37,501 nucleotides of DNA from assembly GCA_947453525.1 (NCBI GenBank), contig CANGHD010000015.1, positions 1 to 37,501 on the forward strand. Direction: 5' to 3'. Position numbers and translations under genes: made by a program. The notes below the pieces were generated by a model, which saw only the letters and a list, made by a program, of their open reading frames with translations, had not been told where the DNA came from and did not search any database. Shown here one piece after another: positions 29,997 through 35,021 of the stretch; the stretch's first letter is position 1, and each line of letters opens with the position of its first letter. This stretch comes from Paracoccaceae bacterium. Its GTDB lineage: Bacteria > Pseudomonadota > Alphaproteobacteria > Rhodobacterales > Rhodobacteraceae.

Positions 29997-30434
29997 ATGA
30001 GCGACACCGACCTTGTGAAACTCTACTCCGGCCGCATTCTGGCTTTGGCCGCCGATATCCCGCATCTGGGGCATCTGGCAGCCCCGGCGGGCACCGCCAA
30101 GAAACGCTCTCCGCTTTGCGGTTCCACGGTCTCGGTCGATGTGGTGGTGAAAGACGGCAAGGTCGCCGATTTCGCGCAAGAAGTCCGCGCCTGCGCCTTG
30201 GGTCAGGCCGCTGCCGCCGTGCTGGGTGAGGTCGTCATCGGCCGCACCCTGCCCGAGTTGCAAGCCGCCCGCGCCGCCCTGTCTGCCATGCTGAAAGACG
30301 CAGGCCCTGTGCCCGCCGCCCCCTTCACCGGCTACGAGGTTCTGATTCCCGCGCGTGACTACAAGAACCGCCACGCCTCGATCCTGCTGGCGCTTGATGC
30401 CACGGTCGAGGCGGTTGAGGCCGCCCAAGTCTGA
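29997..30434 (+). CDS. NifU/IscU N-terminal-like scaffold protein with a lost cysteine
   Basis: 145 residues. The fold is that of the Fe-S scaffold U family: VKLYSGRILALAADIPHLGH, SPLCGSTVSVDVVVKDGKV with C41, RACALGQAAAAVL with C66, and YKNRHASILLALDA at the C-terminus. In IscU the last motif reads HCSILAEDA, so the third ligand Cys is Ala127 here, and the Asp after the first Cys (CGD) is Ser. It is therefore unlikely to assemble a cluster in the standard way; it may be a carrier or a repurposed member. It is monocistronic and divergent from hisI. Confidence 0.82.
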   Translation: MSDTDLVKLYSGRILALAADIPHLGHLAAPAGTAKKRSPLCGSTVSVDVVVKDGKVADFAQEVRACALGQAAAAVLGEVVIGRTLPELQAARAALSAMLKDAGPVPAAPFTGYEVLIPARDYKNRHASILLALDATVEAVEAAQV

Positions 30435-30470: not shown

Positions 30471-30507
30471 AAAAAAACCGCCGCACGACCCCTCGGATCG
30501 GCGGCGG
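30471..30507 (-). terminator. Rho-independent terminator of the small membrane-protein gene
   Basis: On the minus strand CCGCCGC (30507-30501) pairs with GCGGCGG (30484-30478) and is followed directly by seven T (A7 at 30471-30477 on the plus strand). Strong intrinsic terminator for the unit starting at 30701. Confidence 0.88.
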
Positions 30508-30581
30508 CAAGTGGCGTTTAAATCATGCGGGCTGGACAGATCGGCGCTGGGGCAGCGCCACCGGCATGAAACGCGGGCAGA

Positions 30582-30701
30582 TTACGCGGCGCCTGACAGC
30601 GTCAGGCCAACAAACAAAAGAAGAAACAGACTGGCCACGCCCAAGGCATCCTCAAGGTCGGCAACACAGGCGGTCATCTGGCGAGCAATTCGAGAGAACA
30701 T
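30582..30701 (-). CDS. 39-residue single-helix membrane protein under an SOS box
   Basis: ATG at 30701 is preceded by a near-perfect Shine-Dalgarno GGAGGT (30711-30706) at 4-nt spacing. The 39 codons read MFSRIARQMTACVADLEDAL then a hydrophobic stretch GVASLFLLLFVGLTLSG and AA, stop TAA. A basic N-terminus, a short amphipathic acidic middle and one membrane helix suggest an inner-membrane peptide with N-terminus in the cytoplasm. It lies 85 bp downstream of recG on the same strand, with its own LexA-type box and terminator. SOS-induced membrane peptides of similar size (SidA in Caulobacter) block division by binding FtsW/FtsN; that this one does so is inference. No homologue is recognised by sequence. 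Confidence 0.75.
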   Translation of the reverse strand: MFSRIARQMTACVADLEDALGVASLFLLLFVGLTLSGAA

Positions 30702-30755
30702 GGGCACCTCCGTTTCTGTTGCCCAATTGTTCTCATATCATTAACCTTCTGTAAA

Positions 30756-30780
30756 GAACTTAATGAGAACATTTGAGAAC
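30756..30780 (-). promoter_or_regulatory. SOS (LexA) box upstream of the small membrane-protein gene
   Basis: On the minus strand GTTC-TCATTAA-GTTC (30770-30756) is an exact alphaproteobacterial LexA box (GTTC-N7-GTTC). A third GTTC lies six bases further upstream (30780-30777), giving a triple direct repeat. It sits 55-80 bp before the ATG at 30701, in an AT-rich spacer after the recG stop. Confidence 0.75.
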
Positions 30781-30786
30781 GCACCA

Positions 30787-35021
<4,235 letters not shown>

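Follow-up and report, generated by a model that had tools for sequence, protein, structure and literature searches.

The stretch of DNA analyzed here (37,501 nucleotides; hereafter the window) carries, directly behind recG, a reading frame of only 39 codons, and the question it raises is whether this frame is a gene and, if so, what its product might do. An earlier note on the same DNA had described a complete small transcription unit and had interpreted it as a SidA-like, DNA-damage-induced peptide of Rhodobacterales that delays cell division.

Organization of the locus behind recG

As shown in Table 1, all of the elements claimed in that note (GTTC-N7-GTTC with a third GTTC, GGAGGT, 39 codons, TAA and a GC hairpin followed by T7) are present on the minus strand. 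The first GTTC of the box is separated from the recG stop codon by a gap of 16 nt, and the only exact GTTC-N7-GTTC in the window is this one, downstream of recG. The bulged, GC hairpin of the terminator has an energy of -25.3 kcal/mol and was not listed by a simple consensus scan of the window. A consensus scan for promoters listed a sole site here (30755-30726; 0.2 expected). Beyond the terminator lies a convergent ORF (29997-30434, plus strand). A role as a leader peptide for a downstream gene is ruled out in the window by the terminator and then by this convergent ORF.

Table 1. Features of the peptide locus, in the order in which they are read on the minus strand.
Feature	Coordinates	Strand	Basis and details
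recG	30787..32895	minus	ORF; TIGR00643 match in same contig; directly upstream of peptide gene; stop codon 30789-30787 (read directly)
Third GTTC half-site, N6 upstream of operator 1	30777..30780	minus	read directly
LexA operator 1 (predicted), GTTC-N7-GTTC, GTTCTCATTAAGTTC	30756..30770	minus	read directly (half-sites 30770-30767 and 30759-30756); conserved behind recG
TTTACA, -35-like hexamer, abutting operator 1	30750..30755	minus	consensus scan; 75-locus logo
Probable LexA operator 2, reversed; GAAC-N7-CAAC on the minus strand	30718..30732	plus	sequence conservation
Ribosome-binding site GGAGGT, 4 nt 5' of ATG	30706..30711	minus	read directly
39-codon ORF and stop, one hydrophobic helix (P0001)	30582..30701	minus	reading, conservation, pN/pS, AlphaFold2; ATG at 30701, 39 codons through 30585, TAA 30584-30582
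3' untranslated region, C-rich motifs kept in relatives (CTGCCYGCG, CCTGTCCC)	30509..30581	minus	
Intrinsic terminator, hairpin 30508-30477 and T7 30477-30471	30471..30508	minus	energy; conserved equivalents

Distribution and coding evidence

A tblastn search with the 39 residues gave matches at E ≤ 1 in 133 of 295 genomes of the window's family, taken to be Rhodobacteraceae; many of the low-scoring matches are evidently due to chance. Among the best 30 loci, a homologous short ORF with an upstream GTTC-N7-GTTC was found in 29, and the remaining one (L029) was a false match. The recG gene is located upstream of the peptide ORF in 27 of these 29 loci; the exceptions are L010, in which a contig end cuts off the upstream side, and L006. 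The latter keeps the peptide ORF, the box and the usual downstream neighbors, and recG is absent from the 1.5 kb examined upstream. The recG linkage proposed earlier is usual but not absolute.

A profile built from the 29 tblastn-derived homologs detected the peptide in 248 of the 295 family genomes, nearly all of different genera. In an order-level sample of 61 genomes, all of which belong to the same family, it was detected in 56 (profile, E ≤ 0.05).

A peptide-independent sample consisted of the best 80 loci from a RecG search of named genomes, of which 76 could be judged. Of the others, L182 has its recG truncated by the contig end, and less than 250 bases of sequence follow recG in L119 (which has the ORF and the box), L147 (73 bases, with the box alone) and L137 (200 bases, with neither). 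An ORF of the peptide family was present in 75 of the 76 judgeable loci and GTTC-N7-GTTC in the same 75; the laboratory strains Cereibacter changlensis JA139 (L149) and Yoonia vestfoldensis DSM 16212 (L165) are among the carriers. Because sequences from some of the 80 genomes had gone into the profile, scoring of the ORF is partly dependent on it here; selection at no point made use of the box. In the single exception, L136 (Gemmobacter tilapiae), neither ORF nor box was found behind recG. These counts bear out the predicted conservation of frame and box behind recG in relatives.

The recG locus was readable in 28 of the 47 profile-negative genomes. A GTTC-N7-GTTC within 500 bases behind recG was found in 17 of these 28 (in two of them in the reversed form only), and 15 contained an ORF at E ≤ 0.012 (small search) that resembles the core to varying degrees. 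Two profile-negative loci of genus g24 (L207 and L214) keep the box GTTCTTAAAAAGTTC 11-13 bases after recG, together with a strongly diverged short hydrophobic ORF.

No peptide-like ORF was found in 29 recG loci of other families, those with the highest scores among 136 matching genomes from outside the family; a GTTC box occurs in one of these loci and a reversed box in another. When 385 alphaproteobacterial genomes were searched with the profile at class level, strong matches came from five, all Rhodobacteraceae (E ≤ 1.7e-11), while 29 further genomes of the 385 matched at E 0.003-0.1, about chance level, with no convincing relative outside the family. Most Rhodobacteraceae thus have the peptide gene, as a rule immediately after recG, and it was found nowhere else in these samples.

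The 29 members were compared with Pfam, NCBIfam, PHROGs and PADLOC (best E 0.092, 0.064, 0.14 and none, respectively); each matched library family hit one member of the 29, i.e. no convincing curated family was found. Among the open-literature matches listed, the peptide gene is not described, which does not establish its absence from print, and no SOS division inhibitor of Rhodobacteraceae is named. A paper on LexA sites of D. shibae does not mention recG or SidA in its main text (PMC6473078). A phage or plasmid origin was rejected after a tblastn search with the family consensus, a weak probe at 40 residues, had produced no match among 50,697 records of phages and 72,556 of plasmids.

Comparison of the frames in relatives revealed that the ORF is a protein gene under purifying selection. 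Its start codon is ATG in 74 of the 75 ORFs and its length is exactly 40 codons in 64 of them. Pooled over 37 related pairs, which are not independent, pN/pS was 0.26 (pS 0.39, pN 0.10), synonymous changes being approximately four times as frequent as non-synonymous ones. Two residues, G22 and L34, do not vary among the 64 proteins of 40 residues that were aligned, and next come D19 (63/64), L26 (62/64) and L30 (59/64); the equivalents in the 39-residue protein of the window are G21, L33, D18, L25 and L29. The conserved positions recur with the period of a helix in residues 17-38 (p 0.011) and less clearly so in residues 3-17 (p 0.073; both values uncorrected).

The AlphaFold2 model, computed with 71 sequences, consists of one helix (residues 2-38; mean pLDDT 86.5, pTM 0.47). 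Positions 21-34 are free of K, R, D and E in all 64 aligned proteins, and the best 17-residue hydropathy of the peptide is 2.46, in agreement with the single hydrophobic helix noted before. The product is thus predicted to be a very small protein (39-40 aa) with a single membrane helix, in both respects like SidA. The N-terminal segment (residues 1-18) is neutral or positive in 56 of the 64 proteins and negative in eight, which favors an N-inside orientation only weakly.

Promoter, predicted LexA operators and transcript ends

Judged alone, a single GTTC-N7-GTTC in one genome means little, as it is not rarer than chance: 0.87 copies per window are expected from shuffles of the window, and the whole genome contains 111, fewer than the 193 copies of a reversed control pattern. 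The locus is significant because ORF and box are conserved together behind recG and because the two-operator pattern described below is unique in the genome.

Alignment of 75 loci on the box revealed a shared promoter region, [GTTC-N6/7]-GTTC-TTAAAAA-GTTC-TTTACA-N12-TATGAGAACAA-N4-GCAACA. The extra GTTC, at N6-N7 upstream of operator 1, is present in 63 of the 75 loci. The TTTACA hexamer occupies positions 15-20 of the logo (T 1.00, T 0.97, T 0.83, A 0.93, C 0.93, A 0.77). Further downstream, a GAAC block was found as GAAC-N7-CAAC in 63 loci and as the exact reversed box GAAC-N7-GAAC in eight, i.e. in 71 of 75 in total, compared to 20 of 7500 shuffles; in 69 of those 71 its distance from the start of operator 1 is precisely 38 bases. 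This block is a probable second LexA operator in reverse orientation, which would bracket the promoter; an alternative reading for part of it is a conserved -10 or start region. In the window it overlaps the presumed -10/start region (30718-30732) and includes the nearly invariant TGAGAACAA block. The earlier description of the promoter was correct as regards operator 1 and the third GTTC, but had missed this second, reversed operator (30732-30718).

The two-operator DNA pattern has one match in this genome (30718-30770), compared to none for the control pattern. Searched alone, it was found in 77 of 100 family genomes, as against 8 of 100 for the control pattern, and 27 of the 30 loci examined from this search carry recG and the peptide ORF; the remaining three (L261, L267 and L278) are other places. 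The distance from the operator box to the ATG is 66-106 nt in the 75 loci.

The lexA gene of the same genome has a GTTC-N7-GTTC 88 bp 5' of its own start, and two SOS genes of Caulobacter are described with a box of this form (PMC12700426). The recG gene of some alphaproteobacteria appears to be LexA-regulated, in a table that has R. sphaeroides and P. denitrificans (PMC3323433). On the basis of the operator sequences, LexA control of the peptide gene is strongly predicted.

An energy-based search identified an intrinsic terminator within 180 bases 3' of the ORF in 68 of 75 loci, compared to 14 of 375 shuffles; visual inspection alone also suggested that the two arms of the terminator vary in a compensatory manner. 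A terminator-like hairpin between recG and the box was found in only two of the 75 loci; there is none in the other 73, nor in the window (30771-30787). Therefore, transcription of recG probably enters the peptide gene unless bound LexA stops it; the sequence suggests either read-through from recG or a LexA roadblock. The terminator behind the peptide ORF would then serve both the recG and the peptide transcripts. Hence the transcription unit is only in part the peptide's "own", as had been supposed: it has a conserved predicted promoter and terminator, but transcription from recG is unterminated before the box.

Candidate function and alternative readings

The reading that we favor, and consider moderately probable, is that of a tightly SOS-repressed, SidA-like membrane peptide with a single helix that would delay division by binding to the FtsW/FtsI/FtsN machinery. 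We prefer a division inhibitor because of (i) the predicted SOS control, (ii) the wide conservation, (iii) the tiny single helix, (iv) the absence of SulA and (v) the precedents of SidA and DidA and of convergence on FtsW. SulA (PF03846) was found in none of 100 family genomes, and among 14 control genomes only E. coli matches; the identity of the peptide itself with SulA was rejected, the window peptide having no Pfam match. The peptide is a good candidate for the DNA-damage division-stop signal of the family.

In undamaged cells, LexA would occupy the two operators bracketing the presumed -35/-10 and keep the promoter shut, and bound LexA may also stop transcription arriving from recG. Read-through from recG would otherwise lead to some basal expression, which fits an inhibitor poorly if LexA does not prevent it. 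DNA damage would activate RecA, LexA would be cleaved and the peptide would be made from a short leader. As regards topology, partner and division delay, we infer that the short N-terminal part is cytoplasmic and the C-terminal helix enters the membrane, where the helix face D18, G21, L25, L29 and L33 (window protein) could pack against a membrane partner. This partner would most likely be the septal peptidoglycan machinery FtsW/FtsI/FtsN, with division held until repair is done; nothing in the peptide sequence favors FtsW over another membrane protein.

SidA of Caulobacter crescentus is described as a LexA-regulated protein of 29 aa that acts on FtsW, and DidA of Caulobacter as an SOS-independent protein acting on FtsN and induced by DriD instead of LexA (PMC4211646). 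The new peptide shares with SidA the alphaproteobacterial host, the tiny single-helix membrane protein (predicted) and the predicted LexA control. It differs in its length (39-40 residues), its usual position behind recG, its two operators and a profile without convincing relatives outside Rhodobacteraceae. It is likened to SidA as a tiny protein with a predicted single helix and predicted LexA control, and is not classed as a member of the SidA family. With DidA it has in common that it is a small (putative) damage-linked membrane inhibitor, although its gene is predicted to be controlled by LexA rather than induced by DriD. It also resembles YneA (B. subtilis), SosA (S. aureus) and ChiZ (M. 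tuberculosis), which are damage-induced, membrane-bound and act at a late division step (PMC13396833), but unlike YneA and ChiZ, with their LysM domains, and SosA, with its extended region, it ends a few residues past the hydrophobic segment. Small membrane inhibitors induced by the SOS response are described as acting, in common, on late division steps, and damage-induced membrane inhibitors of several bacteria have been proposed, partly from models, to converge on FtsW (PMC13396833, 2026); the same paper does not rate its AlphaFold models of FtsW with SidA, SosA or ChiZ as highly confident. In summary of the earlier interpretation, the SidA-like SOS peptide of Rhodobacterales holds as regards a conserved coding gene, usually behind recG and in these samples confined to its own family, a single hydrophobic helix, conserved LexA-like operators and no convincing match in four family libraries; its induction by DNA damage is predicted, and a division role is one that we infer.

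Among the small membrane proteins known from bacteria, many are regulators of larger proteins in the membrane, and an SOS-induced regulator of some such protein (a protease, a transporter or a respiratory or envelope enzyme), which would help cells to survive DNA damage and leave division untouched, would be compatible with the conserved helix face. We regard this as rather unlikely, as division is the target of SOS-induced small membrane proteins from several phyla (PMC13396833) and, besides recG, no linked gene in the window hints at a partner.

The double operator would suit a product that must stay off, such as a peptide that lowers the membrane potential and thereby slows growth or promotes persistence. 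TisB of E. coli is an SOS-regulated single-helix peptide. DinQ of E. coli is described in the same terms (PMC3567139). The new peptide falls within this size class and shares the single hydrophobic helix and the predicted SOS control, but its one-sided helix conservation, with near-invariant D, G and L across many genera, is more suggestive of a specific contact than of a pore. Type I toxin genes typically combine a long, structured leader with an antisense RNA, whereas the box-to-ATG distance of the new gene leaves room for a short leader only and the single promoter-like site nearby is on the same strand, with no antisense promoter seen (a consensus scan, which is a weak test). We consider a TisB/DinQ-type action unlikely.

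The region between the stop codon and the terminator is conserved as well, and could mark a dual-function or mainly RNA gene in which the 3' untranslated region is a small RNA and the peptide is secondary. TGCC[TC]GC occurs within 40 nt after the stop in 42 of 75 loci (L104-L183 range), compared to 27 of 1500 shuffles. A second motif, CTGTCCC, is present in 56 of the 75 loci, no further than 180 nt from the stop. These C-rich motifs, followed by a strong terminator, could belong to a small RNA or a binding site for an RNA-binding protein. An Rfam search gave only isrK (E 0.2), whose 17.9 bits fall well short of the cut-off of 50, and RNAalifold found zero pairs in a gappy alignment of 33 sequences of the 3' region, in which even the terminator was missed, so that this result neither supports nor excludes structure. 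In view of the codon-level constraint on the peptide, we find the RNA explanation improbable.

That a chance ORF lies behind recG, and that box and hairpin belong to the recG 3' end or to nothing, has next to no chance of being correct: the box is not rarer than chance in this genome alone, but the occurrence in 248 of 295 genomes and 75 of 76 loci, the pN/pS value, the unique two-operator pattern and the conserved terminator all oppose it, and conservation of the frame rules out a chance ORF.

A bolder version of the division-inhibitor reading, which we put forward only tentatively, is that of a hitherto undescribed, near-universal SOS checkpoint gene of Rhodobacteraceae, independent of SidA in origin, whose double-operator promoter behind recG would drive a micropeptide that stops septal wall synthesis and whose conserved 3' region is a possible sRNA of the same response. 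If this is true, neighboring lineages of alphaproteobacteria have arrived at separate peptides for one and the same task, and a near-universal SOS gene can escape the main curated protein-family libraries, probably through its shortness. Rhodobacteraceae include marine roseobacters and laboratory phototrophs, and one 120-base gene in 248 of 295 genomes makes post-damage division delay in this family directly testable.

LexA was detected in 282 of the 295 family genomes, in 279 of them above the curated cut-off. Neither a box nor an ORF-like sequence was found behind recG in eight genomes (L190, L192, L197, L201, L202, L206, L210 and L216). A LexA match is absent in three of these eight, compared to 10 of the other 287 (Fisher p 0.003), in a post hoc grouping that excludes the borderline L191 and L195, covers 28 of the 47 profile-negative genomes and includes some incomplete ones. 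Joint loss of LexA and the peptide gene is therefore possible, but carries little weight; the five genomes L190, L192, L197, L201 and L202 do have LexA.
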